In this document: positions 11,357 through 38,252 of the stretch, in pieces | Numbering within the stretch: the first letter of the stretch is position 1 | How the letters are laid out: every line of letters starts with the position of its first letter | Assembly: GCA_028821145.1 (NCBI GenBank) | Contig: JAPPHC010000069.1 | Coordinates: 698 to 42,436 of the forward strand | Length of the DNA stretch: 41,739 bases | Origin: Gammaproteobacteria bacterium | GTDB lineage: Bacteria > Pseudomonadota > Gammaproteobacteria > Steroidobacterales > Foliamicaceae | Direction of reading: 5' to 3' | Position numbers and translations under genes: made by a program | The notes under the pieces: model-generated | Databases searched by the model: none | What the model was told of the DNA's origin: nothing | The model's input: only the letters and a program-made list of their open reading frames with translations

Positions 11357-12166
11357 ATGCGGCCTTTGAGCAAGGCCGTGCGGGTCCTTGCCGTCGGCGC
11401 GGTGCTCTGCGCGGGTAGCGCGCCGGCGCCCGCCCAGCCGACGCCTGCAACCCTGGTATTTGCCGCGGCCAGCACGATGGTTCCCCTTAACGATCTCGCG
11501 CAAACATTTGAGCGGGAACAGTTGCGGCGCGTGCGGTTCTCCTTCGCGGCCTCTTCGACGCTGGCCCGGCAGGTCATGCACGGCGCGCACGCGGACCTGT
11601 TCCTGTCCGCCAACCGCCAGTGGCTGGATCGTCTCGAGCGGGACGGTTTCCTGGCGGCCGGTTCGCGCCGCGAATTGTCCGGCAACCGGCTGGTCCTGAT
11701 CCGGCCTGCGAACAGCGGCGCGGACGTGATCCTGGCCCGTCCCGCTACGCTGCTGGAGGCGCTTGCGGACTTTCCGCTGGTGCTGGCGGACCCCGCGCAC
11801 GTACCGTCGGGCATATATGCGCGCGAGGCCCTTGAGTACCTGGGGCTGTGGAAACCTCTGCGGGGGCGTCTGGCATTCGCCGCCAATGCGCGCGCGGTGT
11901 CTGTGCGCGTGGCTCGCGGCGAGGCGCCGCTCGGCATTACCTACGCCAGCGAGCTGCGCGCGGAATCGGGCCTGGCCGCAGCCGCATTGCTTCCGGCGGA
12001 AAGCCATTCGCCGATCCGCTACGAACTGGCCCTGATTGAGCCGGCCGACAATCCGTCGGCGCGTGCCTACTACGAGTACCTGCTGAGCGAACTGGCGCAG
12101 GCTGTGTTTCTCAGGCACGGGTTCACACCTGTGAGGGCGGGACGCCCTCACCCCCAGGAGCGATGA
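11357..12166 (+). CDS. modA: Molybdate ABC transporter, periplasmic binding protein
   Basis: This 269-residue protein binds molybdate or tungstate in the periplasm for ModBC. It has a signal peptide (MRPLSKAVRVLAVGAVLCAG) and the ModA pattern: FAAASTMVPLNDLA, FSFAASSTLARQVMHGAHADLFLSA, LVLADPAHVPSGIYAREAL and GEAPLGITYASEL. ATG 11357 is preferred; ATG 11324 is an alternative. The C-terminus is odd: its last 11 residues (VRAGRPHPQER) are encoded by a REP-like palindrome, and equivalent tails are not expected in ModA. The stop overlaps the modB start as ATGA. Confidence 0.93.
   Translation: MRPLSKAVRVLAVGAVLCAGSAPAPAQPTPATLVFAAASTMVPLNDLAQTFEREQLRRVRFSFAASSTLARQVMHGAHADLFLSANRQWLDRLERDGFLAAGSRRELSGNRLVLIRPANSGADVILARPATLLEALADFPLVLADPAHVPSGIYAREALEYLGLWKPLRGRLAFAANARAVSVRVARGEAPLGITYASELRAESGLAAAALLPAESHSPIRYELALIEPADNPSARAYYEYLLSELAQAVFLRHGFTPVRAGRPHPQER
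12131..12157. repeat. REP-like palindrome, copy 1 (inside modA 3' end)
   Basis: A perfect 9-base stem (12131-12139 with 12143-12151) closes a GGA loop, followed by the conserved CCCCCAGG-type flank. It matches the core GAGGGCGGGACGCCCTC seen at 13684, 17657 and 38225. It encodes the modA C-terminus and ends just before the modB start, so the hairpin could also affect modB translation. Confidence 0.8.
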
Positions 12167-12840
12167 CGCCCGTCTGGGAAATCGCGGCGCTGTCGCTCAA
12201 GGTTTCGCTTTGGGCGGTGGCCTGTTCGCTTCCGGTGGGGATCGCCTGCGCCTGGGTGCTGGCACGCTGCCGCTTTCCGGGAAAGATCCTCCTCGACGGC
12301 CTCGTGCACCTGCCGCTGGTCACGCCGCCGGTGGTGGTGGGCTATCTGTTGCTGATCGTGCTGGGACGAAACGGCTGGCTGGGGCGGCTGTTCCACGACT
12401 GGTTCGGCATCACTTTCACGTTTACCTGGAAGGGCGCGGCCGTGGCCGCGGCGGTCATGGCCTTTCCGCTCATGGTCCGGGCCATCCGTCTCGGGATCGA
12501 GTCGGTGGACCGGCGCCTGGAAGAGGCGGCCCGGACACTGGGCGCGACGCCGGCGCGTTCGCTGTTTACCGTCACCCTGCCGCTTGCCGCGCCGGGCCTG
12601 CTGACCGGCACGCTGTTGGCTTTTGCGCGCTGTCTGGGCGAATTCGGCGCCACGATCACCTTCGTCTCCAACGTGCCCGGGCAGACCCGGACCCTGCCCC
12701 TGGCGATCTACACGCTGCTGCAGACGCCTGAAGGCGAAACCGCCGCCGCCTGGCTGGCCGGCGTATCGCTGGCGCTGGCCATAGTCGCGCTGGCGGGCTC
12801 GGAGCTGGCCGCGCGCGCGGTCCGCAAGCGCCTGAACTGA
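12163..12840 (+). CDS. modB: Molybdate ABC transporter permease
   Basis: The 225-residue membrane protein forms the molybdate channel with ModC. It has the expected five or so hydrophobic segments, the EAA-type loop contacting the ATPase (LEEAARTLGATPARSLFTV) and the ModB signature EFGATITFVSNVPGQTRT followed by LPLAIYTLLQTPEGE. The start is ATG 12163, overlapping the modA stop by 4 bases. Length and motifs are normal for ModB. modC follows after 13 bases, so modABC is one operon. No ModE-type operator was identified upstream. Confidence 0.95.
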   Translation: MTPVWEIAALSLKVSLWAVACSLPVGIACAWVLARCRFPGKILLDGLVHLPLVTPPVVVGYLLLIVLGRNGWLGRLFHDWFGITFTFTWKGAAVAAAVMAFPLMVRAIRLGIESVDRRLEEAARTLGATPARSLFTVTLPLAAPGLLTGTLLAFARCLGEFGATITFVSNVPGQTRTLPLAIYTLLQTPEGETAAAWLAGVSLALAIVALAGSELAARAVRKRLN

Positions 12841-12853
12841 CCGTACGCCCGCC

Positions 12854-13972
12854 ATGCTGAAGATCGACGCACGCAGGAAACTGGCCGACTTCGAGTGGCG
12901 GGTCCGGCTTGAGATCCGGCCCGGGATTACAGCCCTGTTCGGCCAATCCGGCGCGGGCAAGACTTCGCTGGTGAACATGGTCGCCGGCCTGCTCACGCCG
13001 GACGAAGGCGAGATCGCAATCGGCGGGACCTGCGTATTTTCGAGGCGCGAGGGCGTCAACCTGCCCCCCGAGCGGCGTCCGGTCGGCGTCGTCTTTCAGG
13101 ATGGCCGGCTGTTTCCGCACCTGAGCGTGCGTGGCAACCTTCAGTACGGCCGCCGAGGCGGAGCGCGGTCCGCGCCGACCCTTGAGGAAGTCGTCGAACT
13201 GCTGGAACTCGAGGCACTGCTCGGGCGGCGGCCCATGAGCCTTTCCGGAGGAGAACAGCAGCGCGTGGCGATCGGACGTGCGTTGCTCACCGCACCCGAC
13301 GTGCTGCTGCTGGACGAGCCGCTTGCCGGGCTGGACGGCGAGCGCCGCGGAGAAGTGCTGGGTTTTCTCGAGCGACTCAAGCGGGACAGCGACCGGGTCA
13401 TCGTCTACGTGACGCACCGCATTGAGGAAGTGGTGCGGCTGGCCGACCGCCTGGTCCTGATCGACCGTGGCGTGATCCGGTCGTCCGGGGAGCTTCAGGA
13501 CCTGCTGGGCCGCCCGGAGCTGCAAGCGTCGATCGGCCAGCAGAGCGCCGGGGCGCTGCTGCGTTGCCGGATTGAGCACATCGACGACGGCGATGGCTTG
13601 AGCCGCCTGTCGTGCTCCGGGCACACCCTGCTCCTGCCGCGGCTGGACCTGCAGTCCGGGAGCGAGGGCGTCGCGCCGTCGTCGAGGGCGGGACGCCCTC
13701 GCTCCCAAGGCGCCGATGTCGTGCTTCAGGTGCGCGCCGGCGACGTGTCGCTGTCCCTGGAGCCGCCCCGTCAAAGCAGCGTGCTGAACGTGATGAGCGG
13801 TATGGTCGAACGGGTCGTGCAGGAAGACGGCGCGCTTGCCGATGTGGTCGTCAACGTGGGCCAGACGCTGTGGGCGCGCGTTACCCGGCGCTCGGTGCGG
13901 GAACTCGGGCTTTCGACCGGCGTGCGGGTCTACGCCACGATCAAGGCCGCTTCGCTGTACTCCGCAAACTGA
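12854..13972 (+). CDS. modC: Molybdate ABC transporter ATP-binding protein
   Basis: The 372-residue ATPase drives molybdate import. It shows Walker A GQSGAGKT (30-37), Q-loop VFQDGRLFPHL, ABC signature LSGGEQQR (about 129), Walker B VLLLDEPLAGLD and switch His VTHRIEE, followed by a C-terminal molybdate-binding MOP domain (SVLNVMSGMV onwards). Residues 269-286 (GSEGVAPSSRAGRPRSQG) are encoded by a double REP-like palindrome inserted in frame between the linker and the MOP region. The protein is otherwise full length. Its 3' end overlaps convergent bioC by 32 bases. Confidence 0.94.
   Translation: MLKIDARRKLADFEWRVRLEIRPGITALFGQSGAGKTSLVNMVAGLLTPDEGEIAIGGTCVFSRREGVNLPPERRPVGVVFQDGRLFPHLSVRGNLQYGRRGGARSAPTLEEVVELLELEALLGRRPMSLSGGEQQRVAIGRALLTAPDVLLLDEPLAGLDGERRGEVLGFLERLKRDSDRVIVYVTHRIEEVVRLADRLVLIDRGVIRSSGELQDLLGRPELQASIGQQSAGALLRCRIEHIDDGDGLSRLSCSGHTLLLPRLDLQSGSEGVAPSSRAGRPRSQGADVVLQVRAGDVSLSLEPPRQSSVLNVMSGMVERVVQEDGALADVVVNVGQTLWARVTRRSVRELGLSTGVRVYATIKAASLYSAN
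13658..13706. repeat. REP-like double palindrome, copy 2 (in-frame inside modC)
   Basis: The outer arms at 13658-13672 and 13692-13706 are a perfect 15-base inverted repeat. Each half also folds alone: GCGAGGGCG-TCG-CGCCGTCGT (one mismatch) and TCGAGGGCG-GGA-CGCCCTCGC. This is the layout of two REP units facing each other. The element is 49 bases; together with flanking bases it keeps the modC frame open and adds about 17 residues. Confidence 0.85.
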
Positions 13973-14786
13973 TCTCCTCCAGCGGCACTTCCGTGGGTTC
14001 CCGGCGGCCGTTCGGCGGAGCGATCCAGGCCTGGCCGTATACCACTTCAATGCTGACGGCTACCATGCCGTCGGCGCCGCGTTGCGCTGCAAAGACTTCC
14101 TCCACGACCCGCCTGCGCCTGCGCCCGGTCAGGCCCGAAGACCCGGACATCATTGCCGGGCCAGCCCCGCAACGGCGCAGGTCGCCTTCCAGCGTGGCGT
14201 AGTCCGCGTACGGCACCGGAAATCGTTCGGCGCTCATGACCGGATCGGCAAAGCCAGCCTGCACCAGGGCGTCGCCCAGATGGTGCATGTCGAGCAGCGT
14301 TTCCGGATCGTCGACCAGGCCTGCGCCGCTGCGAGCGCGGCGCAGTTCCTTGAGCGTGTCCGGCCCGAACATCGAGAAGAAGACAAGGCCGGGCGAATCC
14401 AGCACACGCCGAAACTCGGCGAGCGCAGCGCCAATGGCCGGGCACCAGTGCAAGGCCAGGTTCGAGAACAGCAGTTGCGCGCAACCGTCGGCCAGCGGCA
14501 TCTGCTGCATGTCCCCGCAAATCCGCTGCCCGATCCCGGCGCGCAGCATGCCAAGCGAGCTGTCAAGCGACAGCACCCGGGCCTCGGGAAAGCGCCGGAG
14601 CAATTCGTCCCGCGCGCCCCCGGGACCGGCGCCGGCATCGACGATGCAGGCAGGGTCGATGCGCACCCACTCAAGTTGCTCCAGCATCCGGCGACGAATC
14701 TCCGCGTGGAGGAAATCGTGCCTGGCAAAGCCCGCCGCGGCGCGGTCAAAGGCGCGCCGGACTCGCCGGGGTCGAGGACGGGCCAT
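13941..14786 (-). CDS. bioC: Malonyl-ACP O-methyltransferase (biotin synthesis)
   Basis: The 281-residue SAM-dependent enzyme methylates malonyl-ACP to start pimeloyl synthesis for biotin. It has AFDRAAAGFARHDFLHAEI at the N-terminus, the SAM motif IVDAGAGPGG, LSLDSSLGM, FSNLALHWC and the BioC-specific FGPDTLKELR with MHHLGDALVQAGFADPVM. The start is ATG 14786. It overlaps modC at the 3' end by 32 bases. No bioFHD genes are in the window; comF, often a neighbour of bioC, lies 3.6 kb away. Confidence 0.92.
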   Translation of the reverse strand: MARPRPRRVRRAFDRAAAGFARHDFLHAEIRRRMLEQLEWVRIDPACIVDAGAGPGGARDELLRRFPEARVLSLDSSLGMLRAGIGQRICGDMQQMPLADGCAQLLFSNLALHWCPAIGAALAEFRRVLDSPGLVFFSMFGPDTLKELRRARSGAGLVDDPETLLDMHHLGDALVQAGFADPVMSAERFPVPYADYATLEGDLRRCGAGPAMMSGSSGLTGRRRRRVVEEVFAAQRGADGMVAVSIEVVYGQAWIAPPNGRREPTEVPLEEISLRSTAKRP

Positions 14787-14830
14787 TACGCAGGCGGACC
14801 TATGCCCGGCGGGCCGGAGCGGCGGTTAAC

Positions 14831-16783
14831 ATGGCGCGCGGCGAGACGCGGGAAACGGACCGGATGAGCGCAGGCGACGCAGCAGAGGCAACACCGACCC
14901 GGGAGCGCGGGCAGTTCTCGCTGCTGCTTTCTCGGCGGTTTTCGCCATTCTTCTTCACACAGGCGTTGGGCGCTTTCAACGACAACGTGTACCGCAACGC
15001 CGTGATCGTGCTGATCGTCTTCGGTGCCGGAGCGGCCAATGCCGACACGTTGGCCAACCTGGGCGCCGGCCTGTTCGCCTTGCCATTCTTCCTTTTCTCG
15101 GCATGGGCCGGCGAACTCGCCGACCACGGCGACAAGGCGGTCCTGGCGCGCCGGATCAAGATAGCCGAAATCTGCATCATGCTGCTGGGCGGCCTGGCGG
15201 TGGCCTCCGGCTCGGTATGGGCGGTAATGGCGGTGCTGTTCCTGACGGGAACGCAATCCACCTTCTTCGGTCCGATCAAGTACGCCATCATCCCCCAGCA
15301 CCTGAGACAGGCGGAACTGGTCGGCGGCAACGGACTGGTGCAGATGGGCACCTTCGTGGCCATTCCCGCCGGACTCGTGCTCGGTGGCGCGCTGGCCGCG
15401 GCGGAACCCGAAGCATCGCGCCCGCTGCTGATCGCCGCCACCGTCGTGGGACTGGCGGCGGCAGGATACCTGGCCAGCCGCTTCATTCCGGCCGCGCCGC
15501 CCGCCCGGGGCGCCGGCAGAATCTGCTGGAATCCCTTCACCGTCGTAGCGCGCATGGCGCGGGCCGCGTCCGCCAAACGTTCGGTGCTGCTTTCGATACT
15601 GGGCATTTCCTGGTTCTGGCTGCTGGGGTCCGTGGTCCTCACACAGATGCCCAATTATGGCAAGGAGGTCCTCAACGCCAACGAAACGGTCACGACCTCG
15701 CTGATGGCGACGCTGGCCGTGGGAATCGGCGTAGGGTCGATGGTGTGCGAATGGCTGTCGGGGCGCCGCGTGGAAATTGGCCTCACGCCCATCGGCAGTC
15801 TCGGTCTGACCGCGTTCGCTGCGCACTTCGCGCTGACGACCATGAATCCGGTTACGCCGGCGGCGGGAATGGTGCAGTTTCTTGGCGCGGGGGGCTGGAA
15901 CACGATGCTCGACCTGTTCCTTATCGGGTTCTTCGGTGGACTGTACGTGGTCCCGATGTTCTCGGTGATCCAGCAGCGCACGCGCCAGGAGACACGCGCC
16001 CGGGTCATTGCGTTCAACAATATCGTCAACGCGCTGTTCATGGTGATCGGGGCGGGGCTGAGCATCCTGGTACTGGTCGTGATGGAAATGAGCATCCCGC
16101 AGTTGTTCCTGGTGCTCGCGGTGGTCAACCTGGGCGTCTCGATGTTCGTCTTCTGGGAAGTCCCGGAGTTCGTTGCGCGCTTCCTGATCTGGTGCCTGAT
16201 GCGCAGCCTTTACCGCCTGCGCTTCCGCAATCTCGACCGCGTGCCCGAACGGGGAGCGGCGGTGCTGGTCTGCAACCACGTGAGCTACGTCGACGCACTG
16301 CTGATCCTGGGCGTGCTTCGCCGGCCCGTGCGCTTCGTCATGATCAGGCGCATCTACGACCTGCCGCTTCTCAATTTCATCTTCCGCAGCGTGCACGCCG
16401 TTCCGATCACGGCGCGCAAGGACGATCCGGAGACCTACCGAAAGGCCTTCGAGTCGCTGACGGAAGCGTTGCGCAACCGCGAGCTGGTGTGCATCTTCCC
16501 GGAAGGGCATATCACCCGCGACGGAAAAATGCACGAGTTCCGCCCCGGAGTGCTCAAGCTGCTGAATCAGGTTCCCGTTCCGGTCATCCCCCTGGCGCTG
16601 CGCGGTTTGTGGGGCAGCCTGTTCTCGCACCAGGGACGGGGCGCGTTCCGCGGAGGTCTGAAGTGGCTGCGGGCGCCGGTCGAACTGCTCGTGGGCAGGC
16701 CGATGGCGCCCGAAGGCATCACGACCGACCAGCTATACGAGGAGGTCGCCCGCCTTCGCGGCGCACGAAAGGCAGAGGCGTGA
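14831..16783 (+). CDS. MFS transporter fused to PlsC-type acyltransferase (LplT-Aas-like)
   Basis: The 650-residue protein has an N-terminal 12-segment MFS domain of the LplT type (FFFTQALGAFNDNVYRNA, FLTGTQSTFFGPIKYAIIPQ) and, from about residue 475, a 1-acylglycerophosphate acyltransferase domain with NHVSYVDAL (H, D catalytic) and FPEGHITRDG. It probably flips lysophospholipids across the inner membrane and re-acylates them. Longer relatives add an acyl-ACP synthetase domain, which is missing here. The start is ATG 14831, or ATG 14864 (MSAGDAAEATP). The 3' end overlaps the convergent DUF1295 gene by 65 bases. Confidence 0.88.
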   Translation: MARGETRETDRMSAGDAAEATPTRERGQFSLLLSRRFSPFFFTQALGAFNDNVYRNAVIVLIVFGAGAANADTLANLGAGLFALPFFLFSAWAGELADHGDKAVLARRIKIAEICIMLLGGLAVASGSVWAVMAVLFLTGTQSTFFGPIKYAIIPQHLRQAELVGGNGLVQMGTFVAIPAGLVLGGALAAAEPEASRPLLIAATVVGLAAAGYLASRFIPAAPPARGAGRICWNPFTVVARMARAASAKRSVLLSILGISWFWLLGSVVLTQMPNYGKEVLNANETVTTSLMATLAVGIGVGSMVCEWLSGRRVEIGLTPIGSLGLTAFAAHFALTTMNPVTPAAGMVQFLGAGGWNTMLDLFLIGFFGGLYVVPMFSVIQQRTRQETRARVIAFNNIVNALFMVIGAGLSILVLVVMEMSIPQLFLVLAVVNLGVSMFVFWEVPEFVARFLIWCLMRSLYRLRFRNLDRVPERGAAVLVCNHVSYVDALLILGVLRRPVRFVMIRRIYDLPLLNFIFRSVHAVPITARKDDPETYRKAFESLTEALRNRELVCIFPEGHITRDGKMHEFRPGVLKLLNQVPVPVIPLALRGLWGSLFSHQGRGAFRGGLKWLRAPVELLVGRPMAPEGITTDQLYEEVARLRGARKAEA

Positions 16784-17591
16784 GGCGGGGCGTGGTGGCC
16801 TGGTAGTCGCGGTAAGAAGGATACTTCGCAAGCGTCAGCGATTCCGTCAGGTGGGTCGAGCCCTGGAAAAGGAGCGTGAGAACCACGAAACCCAGGCCGG
16901 TCCAGTTGAACCACTCCCCGGAGGCGCCCACCGCAAACAGGTAGAACACCCACCACATGCCCATCTCACAGAAGAAATTGGGATGGCGGCAACAGGCGAA
17001 AAGGCCGGTTGTGATGAATTGTCCGGTCACCTCCTCGCCCGCATCGATCTTTCGTTTCTTGCCCTGCTGGAATCTCCACATCTGTTCATCGGCCACCCAT
17101 TCGCCGATGAAAAGCACGACGAAAACCGCGGCGGCGATGCCGTCGAGGAAGGTCAGGGGCGTTTCCCGCCACAGCCAGGCCTGGTGAACGGGTGATGCGA
17201 ACAGCCACACGATCAGCATCTGACCCGGAGCGATAAATACCAGGTTCAGCGCCTGAAATCCGACCGGGCCGATTTTTTCGTGTATCGCCGCCCACCGGTA
17301 GTCCTCGCCGCCTTTGGCAAAGCCGCCTTTGCGCGCGTAGTTGTAGGTCAGCCTCAGACCCCATAGCGTCACCAGGACTGCCATGAGATTCAGGCGGGGC
17401 GAGGAAAAATCCGCGTCCGCCGCAACGATGAGGCAATAGACCGGCGGGCACAGCGACCAGAGCCGGTCGGCCCAGGAGTACTCGCGGGTGATCACCGAGG
17501 CGAGCCAGGCCAGGATGGAGACGATCACGCAAAGATCGAGCGCCGTCCCGTACGGCGTGCCCGTGAGCGGGTGGTGGATGAAATTCAGCAT
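16719..17591 (-). CDS. DUF1295 membrane protein (steroid 5-alpha reductase superfamily)
   Basis: The 290-residue integral membrane protein has about six hydrophobic segments and the DUF1295 marks WGLRLTYNYARKGG, EDYRW, FIGEWVADEQMWRFQ, TTGLFACCRHPNFFCEMGMWW and SLTLAKYPSYRDYQ. Members resemble steroid 5-alpha reductases and isoprenylcysteine methyltransferases, with a nucleotide- or SAM-binding C-terminal site; the substrate is unknown. The start is ATG 17591 with no clear ribosome site; TATTTC lies 6 bases upstream. The 3' end runs 65 bases into the MFS-acyltransferase gene on the other strand. Confidence 0.85.
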   Translation of the reverse strand: MLNFIHHPLTGTPYGTALDLCVIVSILAWLASVITREYSWADRLWSLCPPVYCLIVAADADFSSPRLNLMAVLVTLWGLRLTYNYARKGGFAKGGEDYRWAAIHEKIGPVGFQALNLVFIAPGQMLIVWLFASPVHQAWLWRETPLTFLDGIAAAVFVVLFIGEWVADEQMWRFQQGKKRKIDAGEEVTGQFITTGLFACCRHPNFFCEMGMWWVFYLFAVGASGEWFNWTGLGFVVLTLLFQGSTHLTESLTLAKYPSYRDYQATTPRLTPLPFVRREGGRPPRIAGRS

Positions 17592-17630
17592 GAGTCAGAA
17601 ATAGGCGCTCTCACTTGCATGGAACATCCT

Positions 17631-17679
17631 GGGAGCGAAGGCGTCTCGCCTTCGCGGAGGGCGGGACGCCCTCCCGCCC
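17631..17679. repeat. REP-like double hairpin, copy 3 (intergenic)
   Basis: Two adjacent perfect hairpins are present: GCGAAGGCG-TCT-CGCCTTCGC (17635-17655) and GGAGGGCG-GGA-CGCCCTCC (17656-17674). They are flanked by GGGA on the left and CCCG on the right, as in copy 2. The element sits between the 3' end of the SDR gene and the start of the DUF1295 gene, both on the minus strand, and could act as a transcript-stabilising or attenuating hairpin. Confidence 0.85.
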
Positions 17680-17685
17680 GGGCGT

Positions 17686-18396
17686 TTACCAGGCGACTTC
17701 TTCCCCGAAGCGGTTGATGAACTCTCCCGATCGGGACGACTCAAGCCGCTCGAACAGTTCCTGCTGCATGCGCACGCTTTCGACTGGGTCCACCGGCGCC
17801 TCCGGCCCGCCCAGGTCGGTGCGGCACCAGCCCGGCGCCATGGCGATGACCGTGATGTTCTGCCATTCGATCGCCATGCCCCTGGTCAGCATGTTGAGCG
17901 CCGACTTACTGCTGCGGTAGGCGTAGGCATGTCCCATGGAGTTGTTGGCGATCGATCCCATGTCGCTGGACATGTTCACGAGCAGCGGATTGGCGGCGGC
18001 CTCCAGATGCGGCTTGAAACAGACCGCCACCTTGAACGCCGCCATGACGTTGATTTCGTGCATTTCGCGCCACAGTTCGTAATCCATGCTTTCCAGAGAC
18101 TGGTAATGCATGCCCTCGAATGCCGACTTGGGCCCGTAGGTGCCGGCATTGTTCAGCAGAATGTCCAGCGACTCGCCCGCCATTTCCCCGGCCAGCGTCT
18201 CAATGCGCTCGTGATCCGTAACGTCCAGGGTTACCGTGCGCAGCGAACGGGAACCGTTTGATTCGAGCGCTTTCAGACCCGGCGACGCTTCCGGGTTGCG
18301 GGCCGTGGCAATCACTTCCCAGTCCTTCTCGAGGTACTGCCTGGCGTGCTCCAGGCCCAGACCGCGGGAGGCGCCCGTAATCAGGATGCGTGGCAT
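17686..18396 (-). CDS. Short-chain dehydrogenase/reductase (C-factor-like)
   Basis: The 236-residue Rossmann enzyme has TGASRGLG for NAD(P) binding, the D-V after strand 3 (LDVTDHE), LLNNAGTYG and a catalytic Ser...Tyr-x3-Lys arrangement (NMSSDMGS then YRSSK). A MAPGWCRTDLGGPEAPV segment follows, typical of the C-factor/CsgA group of SDRs. The substrate cannot be inferred. The start is ATG 18396. A TATGCT -10 at 18431-18426 on this strand overlaps the divergent comF -10. Confidence 0.88.
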   Translation of the reverse strand: MPRILITGASRGLGLEHARQYLEKDWEVIATARNPEASPGLKALESNGSRSLRTVTLDVTDHERIETLAGEMAGESLDILLNNAGTYGPKSAFEGMHYQSLESMDYELWREMHEINVMAAFKVAVCFKPHLEAAANPLLVNMSSDMGSIANNSMGHAYAYRSSKSALNMLTRGMAIEWQNITVIAMAPGWCRTDLGGPEAPVDPVESVRMQQELFERLESSRSGEFINRFGEEVAW

Positions 18397-18424
18397 AGGG
18401 ATTCCCGTGCTTTCGTGGGAGAGT

Positions 18425-18431
18425 TAGCATA
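18425..18431. promoter_or_regulatory. Overlapping divergent -10 boxes for comF and the SDR gene
   Basis: On the plus strand, TAGCAT (18425-18430) lies 7 bases before the comF ATG, which has no ribosome site. On the minus strand, TATGCT (18431-18426) lies about 29 bases before the SDR start. Because the hexamers overlap, the two promoters would compete. The -35 boxes are weak. Confidence 0.4.
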
Positions 18432-18437
18432 ACCGCA

Positions 18438-19145
18438 ATGACTCCGGGAAACACTGGCCTGGCGCGCTTTCTCCTGCCCTGGCGTTGCGCGCTGTGCGCC
18501 GGTCGCGCGCGCGATGGCCGGGAATTGTGCGACGAATGCGACGCCGGCCTTCCCCGCGCCGAACAGGCTTGCCCCCGCTGCGGAATCCGCATGGCCCGGA
18601 CCGATGTCACCGGCGTCTGCGGGCGTTGCGCGGTCCGGCCTCCGGACTTTTACCGAATGGTGGCTCCGCTTGCCTACGACTATCCGGTGGACCGACTGCT
18701 CCTGGGGCTGAAATTCGGCCGCCGGATGCACCTGGCGCGGGCGCTCGGCCAGGCCATTGCCGAGGGCGTTCGCTCGCAGGTCGAGCAGGGCGTTCTGGAA
18801 ATGCCCGAGGCGCTGGCCCCCGTTCCGCTGCACCCGCGGCGGCTGGCAAAGCGCGGTTTCAACCAGGCGGAGGAAATCGCCCGCCTGATCGCGCGCGAAA
18901 TCGGCGTGCCGATGCTGCCGGACATCTGCCGCCGGGTCCGGCACACGCGCATGCAGAGCCGCCTCAGCGACGAGGAACGCCGCCTGAACGTCGCGGGAGC
19001 TTTTGCGTGCGCGCAGTCGCCGCTCCGGCCGGCGATAGTGGACGACGTCGTTACGACGGGGGCAACGGTTGACGCGATGGCCGCGGCGCTCATCGCCGCC
19101 GGCGCCGAGCGCGTGCAGGTATGGGCGGCGGCAAGGGCCGGGTGA
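18438..19145 (+). CDS. ComF-family phosphoribosyltransferase-like protein
   Basis: The 235-residue protein has an N-terminal zinc ribbon with four CxxC-type pairs (CALC, CDEC, CPRC, CGRC, residues about 17-62) and a C-terminal phosphoribosyltransferase fold with the PRPP-binding stretch AIVDDVVTTGAT. The family includes ComF/GntX, linked to DNA uptake and single-strand DNA handling in competent bacteria, though enzymatic activity is unproven. KRGFNQAEEIAR is also characteristic. The start is ATG 18438, probably on a leaderless mRNA. It is about 130 bases upstream of putA. Confidence 0.9.
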   Translation: MTPGNTGLARFLLPWRCALCAGRARDGRELCDECDAGLPRAEQACPRCGIRMARTDVTGVCGRCAVRPPDFYRMVAPLAYDYPVDRLLLGLKFGRRMHLARALGQAIAEGVRSQVEQGVLEMPEALAPVPLHPRRLAKRGFNQAEEIARLIAREIGVPMLPDICRRVRHTRMQSRLSDEERRLNVAGAFACAQSPLRPAIVDDVVTTGATVDAMAAALIAAGAERVQVWAAARAG

Positions 19146-19274
19146 CGGCCTTCTTCGGAACCGGACGCTGAACCGGGCGGGAAGGGCGCGCGCATACTAC
19201 TCTTTACGGCGGGCCGAAAGTGGCGAAAAAAGTGGTGAAATAGGCAACCAGGAACGAACACGAAGAGATGTGAG

Positions 19275-22298: not shown

Positions 22299-22356
22299 CG
22301 TATTTCTATACAGATGCGCTCATATTGCGACTTGCTCGTCATCCCCTTCCGGAAGC

Positions 22357-22362: not shown

Positions 22363-22369
22363 TCCAACC

Positions 22370-22624: not shown

Positions 22625-22633
22625 CCTCGCCGT

Positions 22634-26775: not shown

Positions 26776-26781
26776 TCGGGG

Positions 26782-26818: not shown

Positions 26819-26827
26819 CACGCAGCC

Positions 26828-27976: not shown

Positions 27977-28010
27977 ACCGCGGCCGATTCCGGCCTGAGG
28001 GTATTGCCCG

Positions 28011-28685: not shown

Positions 28686-28737
28686 TTTCGCGTGATAAGG
28701 TTGGGAAGCTTGTTTAGCCAACATGGGAGGAATGGAA

Positions 28738-29073: not shown

Positions 29074-29086
29074 CACGATAATTCGG

Positions 29087-29125
29087 GCGCCCATGTCGCC
29101 GGGACACCCTCGGCGGCATGGGCGC
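29087..29125. terminator. Strong hairpin between convergent genes
   Basis: GCGCCCATG (29087-29095) pairs with CATGGGCGC (29117-29125), and inside it CGCCG pairs with CGGCG, leaving a 9-base loop. It lies between the convergent small-membrane-protein and yhhQ genes, where a bidirectional terminator is expected. No T tract follows on either strand, so it may instead be a Rho-dependent stop or an RNA-stability hairpin. Confidence 0.5.
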
Positions 29126-29157
29126 GCGCCATCGAGTCTTCGGAATAGACCGGGCGG

Positions 29158-29907: not shown

Positions 29908-30003
29908 CGTGGGGCCCCGGCCAATCGGAAGCCGCTACTGTAACCGTTCGGCGTCCTCAATCGACATGAGGCACAATTCATCTGCCCACGAAGACCCAGG
30001 CAG

Positions 30004-32417: not shown

Positions 32418-32446
32418 TCCCCGATTTACACAAGAGGAGCTGCAAC

Positions 32447-33145
32447 TTGATTGATCTCTACTACTGGCCGACGCCCAACGGCTTCAAGATCGCCATCATG
32501 CTCGAGGAGTGCGGGCTGCCGTACGACATCAAGCCGGTAAACATCGGCGCGGGCGATCAGTTCACGCCCGAGTTCCTGGCGCTGAACCCGAACCACCGGA
32601 TGCCCGTGATCGTGGATAACGACGCGCCGGGCGGTCCGCTTTCGGTGTTCGAGTCGGGCGCCATCCTGGTCTATCTGGCCGACAAAACCGGGCGCTTCCT
32701 GCCCACCGACACGCACGGTCGCTTCGACGCGATGCAATGGCTGTTCTGGCAGATGGCCGGACTGGGGCCCATGGCCGGCCAGGCGGGGCACTTCCTGATT
32801 TACCAGGAAGGCAAGCACGAATACGCGACCGAGCGCTACACGAACGAGTACGGGCGCCTGCTGGCGGTCATGGAGCGCAGGCTCAGGGACCGCGACTACC
32901 TTGCCGGCGACTATTCGATCGCGGACATGGCCTGCTATCCCTGGGTGGCGCCGTACGAGAGGCTCGGCCAGGGCGTGGACGAATTGCCCGGTGTGGCCGC
33001 CTGGATTGGAAGGCTGGGCGCGCGGCCGGCCGTCAAGCGCGGCATGGAAGTCGGCAAGGAACTGCGGTCCGACCAGCCGCTGACGGAGGAGCAGCGCAAG
33101 ATGCTTTATGGTCAAACCGCAAAGAAGACGCTGGAGAAGGCATGA
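32447..33145 (+). CDS. Glutathione S-transferase family protein, YfcG-like
   Basis: The 232-residue protein has the thioredoxin-fold N-domain with WPTPNGFKIAIMLEE, RMPVIVDND before the cis-Pro, and FESGAILVYLADKTG, followed by the all-helical C-domain (YTNEYGRLLAVMERRL, DYSIADMACYPWV). TPNG at the start of helix 1 matches YfcG/Ure2p-like disulfide-bond reductases, which lack the classical Tyr or Ser. The start is TTG 32447 with AGAGGAG 7 bases upstream. The stop overlaps the second GST start as ATGA. Confidence 0.9.
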   Translation: MIDLYYWPTPNGFKIAIMLEECGLPYDIKPVNIGAGDQFTPEFLALNPNHRMPVIVDNDAPGGPLSVFESGAILVYLADKTGRFLPTDTHGRFDAMQWLFWQMAGLGPMAGQAGHFLIYQEGKHEYATERYTNEYGRLLAVMERRLRDRDYLAGDYSIADMACYPWVAPYERLGQGVDELPGVAAWIGRLGARPAVKRGMEVGKELRSDQPLTEEQRKMLYGQTAKKTLEKA

Positions 33146-33789
33146 AGCTGTACGACTACGCCTATGCGCCAAACCCCCGGCGGGTGCACATTTTTCTGGC
33201 CGAGAAGGGCCTGGACATGGAGCGCGTGGAGATCGACCTGACGAAGAAGCAGCAGTTGACCCCCGAATACCAGGAAGTCAATCCGCTGTGCCAGGTTCCG
33301 GTGCTCGAGACTGACGACGGCACGCGCATCAGCGAGTGCCTGGCGATCTGCCACTACCTGGAGGACCTGCACCCGGAACCGAACCTGTTCGGGGCCGGTC
33401 GCGACGAGCGCGCGCAGGTGCTGATGTGGAACCACATCGTCGAACAGGAAGGCATGCCCGGGCTCGCCGAAGCCCTGCGCAACAGGATCAACAACTTCAG
33501 GGACCATGCGTTGCCGGGTCCCGTGGCCTATGCCCAGCTTCCCGAGCTGGTGGAGCGGGGCCGCAAGCGCGCGCGGCATTTCCTGGACTTCATGGACCGC
33601 CGGCTGACCGGCCGCGAGTACCTGGCGCTGGACCGTTTCACGATCGCCGACATCACGCTGCGGGTGGCCGTTGACATGGCGGCGCGCATGGCCGGCAGGT
33701 TCGATCTCACCGTGCTGGAGGACCGTGCAGCGCTGGCAGCCTGGCACGCTCGCGTATCCGAACGCCCCAGCCTAAGGAACGGCGCCTGA
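33142..33789 (+). CDS. Glutathione S-transferase family protein
   Basis: The 215-residue protein starts with MKLYDYAYAPNPRRVHIFLAEKG, then the GSH-binding CQVPVLETDDG with cis-Pro and ISECLAICHYLED. The C-domain has REYLALDRFTIADITLRVAVD, the capping N-box-like motif. In place of a typical Cys or Ser nucleophile it has P-N-P near residues 10-12, so the catalytic residue is uncertain. The start overlaps the previous GST stop by 4 bases, and plsY follows 6 bases later, so these are probably one transcript. Confidence 0.88.
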   Translation: MKLYDYAYAPNPRRVHIFLAEKGLDMERVEIDLTKKQQLTPEYQEVNPLCQVPVLETDDGTRISECLAICHYLEDLHPEPNLFGAGRDERAQVLMWNHIVEQEGMPGLAEALRNRINNFRDHALPGPVAYAQLPELVERGRKRARHFLDFMDRRLTGREYLALDRFTIADITLRVAVDMAARMAGRFDLTVLEDRAALAAWHARVSERPSLRNGA

Positions 33790-33795
33790 GCCTTC

Positions 33796-34446
33796 ATGCT
33801 TGAACTCGGCCTCTCCCTCGTCTTCGCCTACCTGATCGGCTCGATCAACTTCAGCCTGGCGCTCGGCAAACTCCGGAACCTGGACGTTCGCGAGACGGGC
33901 AGCGGCAACGCCGGCGCCACCAATGCCCTGCGCGCCGCCGGTTTCTGGTTTGCCCTGACGGTAATGATCGGCGACGTGGGCAAGGCGATCGTGGCGGTGG
34001 GCCCGCTCGCCACGCTGGCCTACTCGTTTGCCGACGAACCGACGTTTTCACTGGCCTGGGTCCAGGTGGCCGCGGGAGCGTCCGTTACCGCGGCGCATTG
34101 CTATCCGCTGTGGCACGAGTTTCGGGGCGGCAAGGGATTCGCCGCGCTGCTCGGCTCGTACCTGGTGCTGCACGCACCGCTGGTGGGCGCGGTGCTGGCC
34201 GTTTGGGTGCTGGTGATGATCTTCAGCGGCTACGTGGGACTGGCAACCATGGCGGCAGCCGTTTCGGCCCCGGTATTTCTTGCATTCTTCATGCCCGGGG
34301 CACCGCCGGAACTCTTCTGGCTGGCGGCCGCGGCGGGTGCGTTTACGGTGTTGACGCACCGCGACAACATCCGCAACCTGCTCGACGGATCGGAACATTG
34401 TTTCACGAAGGTGCGGGTCGATCACTGGTTCAAGAGCGGCGGGTAG
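33796..34446 (+). CDS. plsY: Acyl-phosphate:glycerol-3-phosphate acyltransferase
   Basis: The 216-residue inner-membrane enzyme transfers an acyl group from acyl-phosphate to glycerol-3-phosphate to start phospholipid synthesis. It has YLIGSINFSLALGK, the conserved GSGNAGATNALR, GDVGKAIVAV, the phosphate-loop HCYPLWHEFRGGKGFA and LTHRDNIRNLLDGSE. The length is typical (about 200-220). The ATG at 33796 lies 6 bases after the GST stop. The birA frame begins inside its last 50 bases. Confidence 0.94.
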   Translation: MLELGLSLVFAYLIGSINFSLALGKLRNLDVRETGSGNAGATNALRAAGFWFALTVMIGDVGKAIVAVGPLATLAYSFADEPTFSLAWVQVAAGASVTAAHCYPLWHEFRGGKGFAALLGSYLVLHAPLVGAVLAVWVLVMIFSGYVGLATMAAAVSAPVFLAFFMPGAPPELFWLAAAAGAFTVLTHRDNIRNLLDGSEHCFTKVRVDHWFKSGG

Positions 34447-35249
34447 GGCCTTACGTCCTGTACGACCGGCGCGCACTGCTGGGAGCGCTCGATCCGGTAC
34501 TCCTCCGGCGAATCAGTCTGCTCGAAATACACGATTCGCTGCCGTCCACCAACGGGCGTTTGCTTCAGGTTCCGGAAACACCGACTGCCGGCAGCCTGGC
34601 GGTATGCCTCGCCGGCCATCAGAGCGCCGGGCGGGGGCGGAACGGAAAGCGTTGGCATTCGCCGGATGGCGCCGGTTTGCTGCTCAGCGTGAGCCGAACC
34701 GCGCCAAAACCCCCGGACGGCTCGCTTGCCCTGGCGCTGGGCGTCGCGATTGCCGAGGGCCTGGAGACCTTCGTATCCAACCGCGTGGAATTGAAATGGC
34801 CCAACGACCTGGTCGCGCAAGACCGCAAGCTGGGCGGCATCCTGGTCGAGACCACCACGCAGGGCGAAGCCGAATGCCGCGTCGTGGCGGGCCTGGGCGT
34901 CAATATCCGGGTAAGTGAAGAACAGCGTGAGCTGGTTACCGGAGAAGGCGGCATGCAACCGGCCGGTCTTTCGGAACTCAATCTGCGGAGAGCCCTCGAG
35001 TACAACGACCTGGCCGTCGCCATGATCGCGGCGATTGCAAATGTCCTGGATTCGCATCCCGTCGAAGGGTTCGGCCGCTGGTCGGACGGCTGGAAGCGGC
35101 GCGACTGGCTTGCGGGAAAGCGAATCGAGGCACGGAGCGGCGCGGATACGCACGTGGGAGCGGCCGCCGGTGTCGATTCATCGGGCGCCCTGCTGCTCAG
35201 GGAATCCGGCGGCGAGCGGCGCATCGTGTCGGCGGAGATCCGCTTGTGA
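34398..35249 (+). CDS. birA: Biotin-[acetyl-CoA-carboxylase] ligase lacking the HTH domain
   Basis: The ligase attaches biotin to the biotin carboxyl carrier protein. Core motifs are all present: LLEIHDSLPSTNGRLL, the biotin-AMP loop GRGRNGKRWHSP, ELKWPNDLV, KLGGILVET and GLGVNIRV. Only about 20 residues precede the core (YVLYDRRALLGALDP), which look like the end of the wing of the BirA helix-turn-helix domain; the rest of that domain is absent. So this BirA probably does not repress bio genes. No ATG or GTG is available: TTG 34398 (overlapping plsY by 49 bases) or a CTG near 34458 are the only candidates. The stop overlaps coaX as GTGA. Confidence 0.88.
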   Translation: MFHEGAGRSLVQERRVGPYVLYDRRALLGALDPVLLRRISLLEIHDSLPSTNGRLLQVPETPTAGSLAVCLAGHQSAGRGRNGKRWHSPDGAGLLLSVSRTAPKPPDGSLALALGVAIAEGLETFVSNRVELKWPNDLVAQDRKLGGILVETTTQGEAECRVVAGLGVNIRVSEEQRELVTGEGGMQPAGLSELNLRRALEYNDLAVAMIAAIANVLDSHPVEGFGRWSDGWKRRDWLAGKRIEARSGADTHVGAAAGVDSSGALLLRESGGERRIVSAEIRL

Positions 35250-36034
35250 ACGCCGCCTCTTCACGTGTCCTCCTGATCGATATGGGAAACACGCGGATCA
35301 AGTGGGCCTGGCTGCCCGGCGACGGGGTGGAACCTGAAGGCGCGGGCGCCGCGCGCACCGGCGACGGGCTGTCCGGCCTGCCGTTTCTGGGCGCCAGGGA
35401 TGCGATAACCGGCGCGGTGGCCTGCAACGTCGCGGGGATCGAACTCGGGCGCAAGCTTGCCGGACTGGTGCGGGAACGACTGGACGTCGAACTCGTGTTC
35501 GTGCAGGCGCAAGCCTCCGCCTGCGGCGTCACCGCCGCCTACGCCAACCCCCTGAACCTGGGCGCGGACCGCTGGGCGGCGCTGATCGGCGCCCACGCGC
35601 TGGGTCCCGCCGACTATTGCATCGTCGACGCGGGAAGCACCGTGACCATGGACCTGCTGCTGGCCGACGGCCGGCATCTCGGCGGCTACATCGCGCCCGG
35701 CCGGGAAATGAGCCTGGCCGCAATGGCGAAGGGAACGGCGGAACTCGCCTCGAGGCTCAGGGACCATGCCGGCCGGCCAGACGATCTCGCACCCGGCACC
35801 GACAGCGCCGAAGCCATGGAAAAGGGAACGCTGGCGGCGCAATTGGGAATGATCCGCTCGGGCATGGAAAGGCTGGCAAGCGAGGGAGGGGGTTCGCCTG
35901 TGCTGCTCCTGACCGGCGGAGGCGCCGACGCGCTGATCGCCACGGACGAACTGCCGGAAGCGCGAATGGCCCCGGACCTGGTGCTACGCGGGCTGGCCGC
36001 GCTCGCGTTAGAATTGCGCGTCAGGCCGGAATAG
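35246..36034 (+). CDS. coaX: Type III pantothenate kinase
   Basis: The 262-residue ASKHA-fold kinase phosphorylates pantothenate, the first step of coenzyme A synthesis. Motifs are DMGNTRIKWAW (phosphate 1), GADRWAALIGAHA, CIVDAGSTVTMDLL (phosphate 2), GGYIAPGREMSLAAM and LLTGGGADAL (adenosine). The start is GTG 35246, coupled to birA. The stop (36032-36034) lies 10 bases inside the downstream tRNA-Thr gene, so RNase P cutting at the tRNA 5' end would remove the coaX stop codon from read-through transcripts. Confidence 0.94.
   Translation: MNAASSRVLLIDMGNTRIKWAWLPGDGVEPEGAGAARTGDGLSGLPFLGARDAITGAVACNVAGIELGRKLAGLVRERLDVELVFVQAQASACGVTAAYANPLNLGADRWAALIGAHALGPADYCIVDAGSTVTMDLLLADGRHLGGYIAPGREMSLAAMAKGTAELASRLRDHAGRPDDLAPGTDSAEAMEKGTLAAQLGMIRSGMERLASEGGGSPVLLLTGGGADALIATDELPEARMAPDLVLRGLAALALELRVRPE
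36009..36014 (+). promoter_or_regulatory. Possible -10 box for tRNA-Thr
   Basis: TAGAAT within the end of coaX lies 10 bases before the mature tRNA-Thr 5' end. It would give the tRNA pair a promoter independent of the birA-coaX transcript. The -35 region is weak. Confidence 0.4.
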
Positions 36035-36100
36035 CTCAACTGGTAGAGCACCCGCCTTGTAAGCGGAAGGTTGCGGGTTCAAGTCCCTCTTCCGGCACCA
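36025..36100 (+). tRNA. tRNA-Thr(TGT)
   Basis: The cloverleaf is complete: acceptor GCCGGAA/TTCCGGC, D arm GCTC/GAGC, anticodon loop CTTGTAA (anticodon TGT, codon ACA), T loop TTCAAGT and encoded CCA. There is a C-A mismatch at the top of the anticodon stem and a C-T mismatch in the T stem, both mild. Its first 10 bases overlap the end of coaX. Confidence 0.94.
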
Positions 36101-36102
36101 GT

Positions 36103-36179
36103 GGTGATGTAGCTCAGCTGGTTAGAGCGGCGGACTCATAACCCGCAGGTCGGTGGTTCAAGCCCACCCATCACCACCA
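36103..36179 (+). tRNA. tRNA-Met(CAT), elongator (or Ile2)
   Basis: The acceptor GGTGATG/CATCACC, D arm GCTC/GAGC, anticodon loop CTCATAA, T arm GGTGG/CCACC and encoded CCA are all present. The acceptor starts with a paired G, so this is not the initiator. CAT could be elongator Met or lysidine-modified Ile; the sequence alone does not decide. It lies 2 bases after tRNA-Thr. Confidence 0.92.
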
Positions 36180-36196
36180 CTTTTCGCTGCGGCGCG

Positions 36197-37237
36197 CTAC
36201 GTCACCCGGATGACGATCTTGCCGATCTTCTCGCCGCTTTGCATGTACTCGATCGCGTCGTAGACGTCGTCCCAGTCGAAGACGCGGTCGATGACGGGTT
36301 TGATGTCGTTGCGGACCATGGCCCGGATGAGGTCCGTGAACATGCGCCGGCTGCCGACGATGATGCCCCGCACGGTGAGGTTCTTGAGAATGAGGTTCGG
36401 CAGTTTCGTCAGGACCGGAGGCTCCTGGGGTTCCTGGTTGTGGACCACCGGGTTGGCGCCGATATGCATGATGCGGCCGTTTGAGGCCGCGGCCATCAGG
36501 CAGTTCTCCATTTCGCCTAAACCCACGTTGTTGAGAATGATGTCCGCTCCCTCGCCATCGGTGAGTTCCAAGACTTCCTCGGGCCAGTCCGGACTGGTGC
36601 GGTAGTTCACGCCGAGATCGGCGCCAAGTTCCTTCAGGCGGGCAAGCTTCGCGTCGCTCGATGACGTCATGATGCATCGCGCGCCGAGCATCTTGGCCCA
36701 TTGCATTCCGAACACGGACACGGCGCCGGAACCCAGGGTCAGCACTGTATCGCTGGCCTTGGCCGCGCCCGCCTCCACCACGGCGTTCCAGGCGGTCAGG
36801 CCGGGGCTTTGCAGGGTGCTGGCCTCCTCATAACTCAGGCTGTCGGGCAGCCTGATCAGCGCTGCCGCCGGCACTACGACCTGCTCGGCGAGAAAACCGT
36901 CGAGGGTGGCGGCGTAGTCCTTTTCCGACATGGACGCGTGCCAGTCGCCGTCCAGCCATTGCCAGTAGTGGCTCATGGTCACCCGGTCGCCGACCCGGAC
37001 GTTTTCCACGCCGGCGCCGACCGCGATGATGTCGCCGGCGTTGTCGCTCAGCGGCACGCGGGTGTGAGGCATGACGGTTTTGCCCAGACTGCCGTGCATG
37101 ATGGTGAGGTCGCGGGCGTTGATGCCGGTGGCGCGCACCCGCATGACCGCTTCGCCGTGGCCGGGAACCGGTTCCGGCCGCTCGACTGCATGCAGGGCCA
37201 GGCCCTGGCTGTAGTCCCCTATTTCAAAGACTTTCAT
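36197..37237 (-). CDS. Zinc-free medium-chain dehydrogenase (quinone oxidoreductase-like)
   Basis: The 346-residue NAD(P)-dependent enzyme has an N-terminal GroES-like domain (RVPLSDNAGDIIAVGAGVENVRVGDRV) and a Rossmann domain with LTLGSGAVSVFGMQWAKMLGA. The structural and catalytic zinc Cys/His residues of alcohol dehydrogenases are absent, so it is a quinone-oxidoreductase- or enoyl-reductase-like member. The substrate is unknown. It lies 21 bases downstream of the DUF1838 gene on the same strand, with no Shine-Dalgarno. Its 3' end stops 17 bases from the tRNA-Met gene. Confidence 0.88.
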   Translation of the reverse strand: MKVFEIGDYSQGLALHAVERPEPVPGHGEAVMRVRATGINARDLTIMHGSLGKTVMPHTRVPLSDNAGDIIAVGAGVENVRVGDRVTMSHYWQWLDGDWHASMSEKDYAATLDGFLAEQVVVPAAALIRLPDSLSYEEASTLQSPGLTAWNAVVEAGAAKASDTVLTLGSGAVSVFGMQWAKMLGARCIMTSSSDAKLARLKELGADLGVNYRTSPDWPEEVLELTDGEGADIILNNVGLGEMENCLMAAASNGRIMHIGANPVVHNQEPQEPPVLTKLPNLILKNLTVRGIIVGSRRMFTDLIRAMVRNDIKPVIDRVFDWDDVYDAIEYMQSGEKIGKIVIRVT

Positions 37238-37258
37238 GGAGCGCCCGACGCAGCGCGG

Positions 37259-38158
37259 CTACGACCCGTAGGTGTCCTTGTATTCCTCTATGTAGTCGTG
37301 GTACTCGGTCCAGTTCTCGACGTCGAAGATCTTCGGAGCCTTCAATTCCAGCGACCGCCGGGCCGCGGGCGGCAGCTCGTCGAGGCTGGCCAGCTTGGTG
37401 CCGTAGGCCCGGCCGTAGCTGCGGCCTGCGTGGCCGCCCATGCCGACCCAGGGGCCCCAGCTCACCAGGTTCTGGAACTGGCAGAAGGCCGGCGCGTTGT
37501 CGATGTCGGGATTGGCCACATCCTCGAGTTTTGCGGCGTGGACGAACAGGGAGTCCCAGTAGTGGGTGCGACCCGGGGATTCCTTCGGCCATTCCTCCGG
37601 GTCGAAGGGACTGGGATAGGAAAAATGCGAGGCGACGGGCACGAAGACCATGCCACCGTAGGTTTCCATACGCAGGGTATCGGGATGGACCGTGGCTTCC
37701 GGCGGCGTTTCCACACCGTCGGCACCCATTTTCACGTTCAGGGGACCGCCCAGGAACGTCCAGGGCTCCCTGACTTCTCCCGTAATCGGGTTTTCCCAGG
37801 ATTCCAGCACCTCGTCCGTGTCGAACTTGCAGTAGACGCCGCACTCGAACACCTTGAATGCGTACTGGTTGTCCTCCAGCGGACTGCACTGCGTTACGTT
37901 CAGGTTGTTCATCGTGAACAGCGGTATGAGGTTGCCGTCGTTCATGTAGGCGTAGAGGTGCAGGCGGTAGAACCTGTAGACCGTTTCCTCCGCGGCGGAA
38001 CCCGATACCTTGGCGCGCACGCGGGCGCGCACGGCAGGGTCTTCCAGGTCGAGCGACGGTGACGTTTCGGCCGCGCATCCGGAAAGCACGCCGCCCGTAA
38101 GCGCGGTTCCCGCGCCCGCCAAAATGGCTTCCCGCCGAGTTAACGCAAATTGTCCCAT
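37259..38158 (-). CDS. DUF1838 Tat-exported lipoprotein
   Basis: The 299-residue protein has a twin-arginine start (LTRREAILAGAGTAL) and a lipobox (LSGC) and is therefore probably anchored in the envelope. The DUF1838 core follows: YRFYRLHLYAYMNDGNLIPLFTMNNLN, NPITGE and FLGGPLNVKMGADG. Family members are common in marine gammaproteobacteria, often next to dehydrogenases and amine oxidases; the function is unknown. The start is ATG 38158 with GAGGAGGG 5 bases upstream. It is the first gene of a pair with the quinone-oxidoreductase-like enzyme. Confidence 0.87.
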   Translation of the reverse strand: MGQFALTRREAILAGAGTALTGGVLSGCAAETSPSLDLEDPAVRARVRAKVSGSAAEETVYRFYRLHLYAYMNDGNLIPLFTMNNLNVTQCSPLEDNQYAFKVFECGVYCKFDTDEVLESWENPITGEVREPWTFLGGPLNVKMGADGVETPPEATVHPDTLRMETYGGMVFVPVASHFSYPSPFDPEEWPKESPGRTHYWDSLFVHAAKLEDVANPDIDNAPAFCQFQNLVSWGPWVGMGGHAGRSYGRAYGTKLASLDELPPAARRSLELKAPKIFDVENWTEYHDYIEEYKDTYGS

Positions 38159-38224
38159 TTGTCCCTCCTCTCCCGATTTTGTGGCATGCCCATGGGGTGG
38201 GGAGGGATGATAGCGCGGCTCTAT

Positions 38225-38252
38225 CGAGGGCGAGACGCCCTCGCGCCCAGGG
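38225..38252. repeat. REP-like palindrome, copy 4 (intergenic)
   Basis: CGAGGGCG-AGA-CGCCCTCG (38225-38243) is a perfect 8-base stem, followed by the conserved CGCCCAGG flank. Read with copy 3 in reverse (CGAAGGCGAGACGCCTTCG...CCCAGG), the match extends over about 27 bases. It sits between the PCP_red-like gene stop and the DUF1838 start, and could serve as a 3' stem for the transcript. Confidence 0.8.

Follow-up and report, generated by a model that had tools for sequence, protein, structure and literature searches.

A REPIN-like palindrome family dispersed through a gammaproteobacterial genus in which no cognate RAYT was detected

Repetitive extragenic palindromic (REP) sequences have been described in tagged superfamilies such as GTAG and CGTC, and those that occur as two inverted hairpins forming one unit are designated REPINs in the passages of PMC3116915 that define them. 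REP-associated tyrosine transposases (RAYTs) are described, in the relevant part of PMC8049555, as vertically inherited single-copy genes that are tied to their own REPINs. The CGTC-tagged REPs (Di Nocera 2013) include two Rickettsia palindromic elements (RPEs) of R. conorii, RPE-4 and RPE-6, according to the account given of them in PMC3733652. Here we analyze a 41,739-nt stretch of DNA (the window) from a gammaproteobacterium of the family Foliamicaceae (assembly GCA_028821145.1, contig JAPPHC010000069.1, positions 698 to 42,436), in which four palindromic loci, numbered copies 1 to 4, belong to a repeat family that is scattered through members of one genus. We conclude, with a probability of roughly 0.85, that these palindromes constitute one REPIN family together with many decayed single hairpins, whose movement would have been driven by a RAYT and whose later history would have been that of orphans. 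This is a new REPIN family of a known kind, set apart by the failure to find a resident RAYT and by its spread across phyla. Among the titles and abstract openings listed in literature searches none describes the family, and five core strings were absent from the papers searched.

With up to 94 exact cores per genome, no RAYT found in the genus and a likely cognate RAYT in another phylum, the family opens three questions to testing: can REPINs persist or move when no RAYT is resident, do RAYT-REPIN pairs spread from one phylum to another, and which peptide frames are tolerated by proteins? The nine related genomes additionally allow the same loci to be compared in their occupied and empty states.

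Anatomy and distribution of the repeat unit

The four loci proposed in an initial annotation of the window are present, with cores at 12133-12149 (copy 1), 13664-13680 and 13684-13700 (copy 2), 17637-17653 and 17657-17673 (copy 3) and 38226-38242 (copy 4), as are their common core, the flanks of the CCC(A)GG type and, in copy 2, the outer palindrome of 15 bp. A scan of the window that allowed up to 3 mismatches gave 14 strand-wise matches, whereas 100 shuffles averaged 2.04 and never exceeded 7. Copies 2 (13655..13709, plus strand) and 3 (17628..17682, strand undefined) are the two loci that had been recognized as paired inverted units; each is a 55-nt REP doublet, with the hairpins of copy 3 being GAAGGCG/CGCCTTC and GAGGGCG/CGCCCTC separated by the spacer CGC. 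Copies 1 (12133..12158, plus strand) and 4 (38226..38251, plus strand) are single REP hairpins with one tail, ACCCCCAGG and GCGCCCAGG, respectively.

Four genus genomes supplied the 186 sites, in 137 ortholog clusters, from which the anatomy of the unit was derived; a site here is a core with up to 2 mismatches. This sample includes regions of genomes G068 and G050 that were picked for holding copies, as well as stretches of G086 that cover 1.18 of about 3.0 Mb. The commonest full form is a 55-bp unit, CCTGGGAGC-[GARGGCG TCT CGCCYTC]-NNN-[GAGGGCG GGA CGCCCTC]-GCTCCCAGG, that consists of two hairpins, each with a 7-bp stem and a 3-nt loop, which are separated by 3 nt and carry tags on the outside, the second one inverted. 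The tag consensus is CC[T/C]GGGAG[C/G], and conservation ends sharply 9 nt outside the core. Neighboring cores form 62 pairs, of which 56 are in inverted orientation with the tags on the outside; the 3-nt spacer is present in 49 of the 56. The stems also covary. The consensus stem is found in 107 of the 199 cores, one stem change in 25 and two in 67, and in 63 of these 67 both sides of one pair were swapped to another complementary pair, as compared with a chance expectation of 1 in 13 for both changes falling on one pair. Four stem types account for these 63 double changes and have spread as subfamilies, so that the number of cores exceeds the number of events; cores with more than two changes lie outside this count. 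The hairpin stems are thus maintained.

The source genome (G000; 2.22 Mb in 83 contigs, 66% complete) contains 26 exact cores, 18 forward and 8 reverse, versus 0 for a reversed control pattern. When up to 2 mismatches are allowed, the counts are 47 forward and 56 reverse matches versus 2 and 1 for the reversed pattern, and many exact cores are counted on both strands in this tally because the core is nearly its own complement. In an order-level sample the exact core occurs in 9 of 196 genomes, seven of which are members of the genus, with 94, 78, 51, 47, 27, 26 and 16 copies (control 0); the two others belong to one other family and have 7 and 1 copies. The remaining two of the nine genus genomes, G012 and G075, have no exact core, and G012 has one degenerate unit. 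In a class-level sample 1 of 369 genomes has the exact core, namely the source genome itself. The initial claim of a dispersed REP-like family above chance frequency is therefore borne out by these controls. A GC-rich and self-complementary core could in principle arise from the composition of a GC-rich genome, but with 26 exact copies against none for the control, near absence from the class-level sample and 26-nt identity across phyla, including Chloroflexota, chance palindromes are hardly credible, and the controls already refute them.

A 26-mer that comprises the core and tail was present in at least 118 stretches of a genome contig collection. Among the 118 matches listed, 94 are from Chloroflexota (Chloroploca, Viridilinea, Oscillochloris, Chloroflexaceae and other Chloroflexi metagenome-assembled genomes, or MAGs), 20 are from gammaproteobacterial MAGs that by inference mostly belong to the genus of the window, and the last four are from beta-proteobacterial, Azoarcus, Porphyromonadaceae and Phycisphaerae MAGs. 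The core and tail pattern had no match among viral contigs, nor did a 57-nt stretch of copy 3 match any plasmid or phage at E up to 1e-3. In Ca. Viridilinea (loci L148, L150, L159 and L174) and in Chloroflexaceae (e.g., L139, L166 and L189) the doublet is nested in longer inverted repeats which, judged by eye, form compound elements of roughly 100 nt.

Contamination or chimerism of MAGs is possible for three carriers, G131, G034 and G576. In G131, the other-family genome with seven exact cores, all of them are confined to contigs C121 and C149, which may reflect transfer or contamination, and the one locus compared (L078) had no match to the genus DNA compared. G034 (locus L077), the other-family genome with a single exact core and apparently the same MAG as the record of L170 (G571), carries a doublet whose identity to genus doublets is 95% across 63 nt, and the rest of the 3-kb or 8-kb locus had no match, among those listed, to the genus DNA compared. 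This copy looks like one REPIN that moved alone or, alternatively, like the product of a chimeric MAG.

Placement in genes, reading frames and empty sites

Genes were called with a home-made codon-usage caller, which was wrong for at least one gene of the window, the DUF1295 gene. It assigns about 92% of bases to coding sequence, and only 34 of 137 clusters are intragenic (13 of 50 sites in the source genome and 10 of 43 in G086), so genes are avoided. The 103 intergenic clusters that have both neighbors lie in 59 co-directional, 32 convergent and 12 divergent gaps. As background, gap base pairs in the G086 stretches are 57% co-directional, 16% convergent and 27% divergent; convergent gaps are consequently over-used and divergent gaps under-used. 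An element end lies flush with a stop codon in 13 of these 103 clusters, versus a mean of 6.0 and a maximum of 13 in 2000 random placements within the same gaps, and within 0-5 nt of a stop in 42, versus a mean of 21.9 and a maximum of 32. The window offers two such cases: copy 3 is intergenic and lies 3 nt past the stop codon of a short-chain dehydrogenase/reductase (SDR) gene (17686..18396, minus strand), and copy 4 ends 1 nt away from the TAG stop of an open reading frame (ORF) at 38253-38453 on the minus strand. REPs of other species are described with the same positional habits in parts of PMC3733652 and PMC12306157, and work cited in the latter reports that REPs 15 nt or less from stops stall ribosomes.

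These positions raise the alternative that the palindromes are functional RNA hairpins, retained past stop codons to regulate the decay or translation of mRNA, and that mobility is secondary. The excess next to stops, the preference for convergent gaps, the ribosome stalling reported for other REPs and the predicted RNA fold of copy 2 (-49.6 kcal/mol, z -7.7) all agree with such a role; the z values of copies 3 and 1 are -3.6 and -2.2. However, avoidance of genes and promoters alone yields part of the positional pattern, at least 1 of the 2000 random placements also gave 13 flush ends, and the fold of copy 4 is within the range of chance (z -1.1, with 23 of 200 shuffles as good). DNA folding is also seen for copies 2 and 3. 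A search of Rfam with window positions 11000-18500, which hold copies 1-3, gave no match at E up to 1, and some sites are present or absent among close relatives. Overall we regard an RNA function as the primary explanation as unlikely. By eye, the window hairpins are not followed by a T-run, for which reason intrinsic terminators were dismissed; the same observation speaks against an RNA function.

The intragenic copies were the basis for the initial annotation to liken the repeat to RPEs, as a palindrome tuned to keep a single frame open and to contribute peptide to host proteins. Copy 1 is located at the 3' end of a modA-like gene (SBP_bac_11; 11357..12166, plus strand), where it encodes most of the ModA end peptide VRAGRPHPQER, and copy 2 is in frame in a modC-like gene (ABC_tran and TOBE; 12854..13972, plus strand), between the ABC domain (aa 18-158) and the TOBE domain (aa 308-368). 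Both are read as R-A-G-R-P, as had been noted. The tail of copy 1 additionally provides late modA codons and part of an AGGAG motif directly before the modB start (12150-12166).

The core and the consensus unit contain no stop in any of the six frames, and therefore there is no tuning to one frame. The preference for one frame did hold up in part, as frame use among 32 scored intragenic clusters is 20:10:2 (p about 7e-4 for 20 of 32): 20 clusters read PGxEGVPPSxxAGRPRSQ, 10 use the WERGRPAL/EGGTPSLP frame and 2 use the third. In the subset at least 30 aa from the called start the ratio is 16:4:2 (22 clusters, p 2e-4 for 16 of 22). This is a post hoc test with one member per cluster, in which 2 mixed clusters of the 34 were set aside and the 22-cluster subset was picked by hand. 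We read the bias as probable selection against the other frames and as survival of a tolerated flexible peptide, not a designed one, and the inserted peptides would be neutral. An element selected for one coding frame in the manner of RPEs would account for the bias and for the observation that the favored frame does not have the best codon score. The six open frames, the avoidance of genes and the use of other frames argue against it, and we consider it improbable.

Comparison among relatives reveals both occupied and empty sites. A 51-nt in-frame insert in modC is present in 3 of 9 genomes (G000, G068 and G050), two (G026 and G038) have 9 extra nt that resemble the end of the element, and four (G086, G060, G075 and G012) have none, with all length differences being multiples of three. 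The prediction that the ModC peptide would align as an insertion was thus correct. The 3' end of modA is likewise variable in length: relative to G086, G068, G026 and G038 the source genome has 15 and G050 has 81 additional nt, and G060 is 3 nt shorter than the source. Taken with the copy numbers above, other copies are many, and these peptides are not conserved in relatives that lack the palindrome. Copy 3 occurs in G000, G068 and G050, and the five other relatives in which the locus could be placed do not have it. In G086, the closest relative (95% identity across a 7-kb query), 22 of the 50 source sites could be placed in the stretches compared and 28 could not, with shared or absent status judged by eye; five of the 22 are absent (modA, modC, copy 3, L032 and L063:2048). 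At L032 the relative has a clean 72-nt empty site beside a stop codon common to both genomes, and the spacer of this recent-looking copy was found only at that locus in the DNA compared. Occupied and clean empty orthologous sites therefore exist among these relatives, and the unit may have been mobile.

The empty sites also bear on whether the unit could be a miniature inverted-repeat transposable element (MITE) of an ordinary DDE insertion sequence. The unit is short and non-coding with inverted ends, and some Chloroflexota units lie, by eye, inside longer inverted repeats, as expected for a MITE. On the other hand, neither modC nor L032, the two clean empty sites, showed a target-site duplication, and copies of this very unit surround RAYT genes in two phyla; we judge a MITE very improbable, with the limit that no search aimed at DDE transposase families was made.

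A separate case of variation concerns a conserved gene (L063:2597 in the source, C36:8784 in G086), which appears to be GTPase-like from a motif. It has a REP insert at the same place in both genomes, 54 nt longer in G086, and the ortholog cluster comprises four sites, each of them intragenic.

RAYT genes and the proposed history of the family

A RAYT had been expected elsewhere in the genome, an expectation that was disappointed. The nine genus genomes (the source 66% complete, the eight others 91-95%) gave no match to the PF01797 profile, for which controls matched in 5 of 14, none to NF047646 (REP_Tyr_transpos), for which controls matched in 6 of 14, and nothing better than E 0.2 to the likely cognate RAYT protein of genome G574. 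An order-level sample contains RAYT matches at E up to 1e-10 in 78 of 396 genomes, none of them among the nine, and identity is at most 42% among the matches listed. Elsewhere, NF047646 matched all nine Chloroflexota genomes as well as G573 and G575 below the curated cut-off, and G574 and G576 above it; G571, G577, G034 and G131 gave no match. RAYTs on plasmids (35 records) are all below 60% identity.

The two RAYTs above the cut-off are physically associated with the repeat. G574 (JAJEIQ01, a Pseudomonadales MAG) has 189 exact cores, and its RAYT ORF is situated amid arrays with eight exact cores within 1.3 kb; the encoded protein matches NF047646 at E 3.6e-30 and the solved TnpA-REP chain 4er8 at 1.5e-10. 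In G576 (BPJO01, a Phycisphaerae MAG with a 3.4-Mb genome) all four exact cores are within 0.8 kb of the RAYT, and one of them is in a doublet with the CCTGGGAGC tag. These two RAYTs are 58% identical over 196 aa and are sisters with support of 99/94 in a tree of 15 rows, from which 6 of 21 rows had been left out for having no usable frame. It is likely, from these alignments and gene neighborhoods, that the cognate RAYT resides outside the genus in other lineages, and the data would fit transfer of a RAYT-REP pair between phyla.

At the G576 locus (L229:3985-7431, BPJO01000015.1) the RAYT and its flanking REPs lie in frame inside a DUF1156 gene (PF06634, E 5.4e-17). The frame is open for 1149 aa and contains at least two further REP-like peptides, PGSEGVPPS and PGREGILPS. 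Its best plasmid homologues span query positions 15-963 but align in 2-3 pieces with a coverage of only about 70%, consistent with a gap at the RAYT.

A number of observations weigh against a RAYT-driven REPIN family. At 78 of 137 sites only one core is found at up to 2 mismatches, and a second perfect 7-bp hairpin within 12 nt accompanies just 8 of these 78; we take many of the single hairpins to be decayed doublets because a likeness to half a hairpin persists in the consensus of their untagged side. None of the three RAYT queries found a gene in the nine genus genomes, and 20 of 30 RAYT-type loci lack any core. The tags at the G574 RAYT, CCGGAGC and CCGGACC, are close but not identical to CCTGGGAGC, which in turn differs from the GTAG or GTGG of GTAG-1 REPINs. 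Finally, 17 of the 22 placed sites are common to the source and G086 in some form, and since most compared sites are shared with the closest relative, current mobility is low or nil.

We nevertheless favor a REPIN family with an orphan history, which could be explained as follows. Units would be mobilized in the form of single-stranded hairpins by an NF047646-type RAYT that acts on the tag and hairpin. The genus of the window would either have lost its RAYT or have gained the units horizontally, and would now keep an orphan, slowly decaying REPIN population. Copies after stop codons would represent a tolerated class, and intragenic copies would add a flexible G/P/S-rich peptide and persist where harmless. 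A more general scheme, in which RAYT-REPIN pairs cross phyla, in contrast to the vertical descent described for RAYTs, and REPINs spread as orphans without a RAYT in this gammaproteobacterial genus, arrive singly, settle flush behind stops and enter proteins mainly in the tolerated frame, is offered tentatively, as we give it somewhat less than an even chance.

Comparison with described palindromic repeats

Like RPEs, the present family makes in-frame insertions in protein genes, with a frame bias in the 34 of 137 clusters that are intragenic and with translation that is predicted from the sequence. RPEs are 105-146 bp in the account given in PMC2229807, however, versus 55 bp for the present unit, which is open in all frames and mostly extragenic.

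The CGTC-tagged REPs are similar in forming palindromic doublets that also occur in genes, and the passages on them in PMC3733652 report them without a dedicated transposase. The present family differs in that its tag consensus does not have the CGTC terminus, its loop is 3 nt and not 4 or 5 nt, and it has a likely cognate RAYT in other genomes.

The closest likeness is to the GTAG-1 REPINs and their RAYTs (TnpA-REP) of Pseudomonas and Xanthomonas. Differences are that the tag CC[T/C]GGGAG[C/G] lacks the GTAG terminus, that the genus has a mostly fixed 3-nt spacer, that no cognate RAYT was found in the same genome (0 of 9 genus genomes) as would be expected of a resident RAYT-REPIN system, and that the unit occurs in several phyla. 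In common are two inverted hairpins that form one unit, which is how a REPIN is defined, tags on the outside and many copies. The present repeat is over-represented (seven of the nine genus genomes have between 16 and 94 exact cores each) and mostly extragenic, and it prefers the 3' ends of genes as GTAG-1 REPINs do. The GTAG-1 layout as described in PMC3733652, a tag followed by two unpaired bases and then the stem, is likewise shared, and a P. putida REP that begins TGTGGGAGCGGGC, as given in the relevant part of PMC2817692, resembles the present CTGGGAGCGAGGGCG. Moreover, a RAYT flanked by the same REP, within an array of the present units, is found in two genomes, G574 and G576, both outside the genus.

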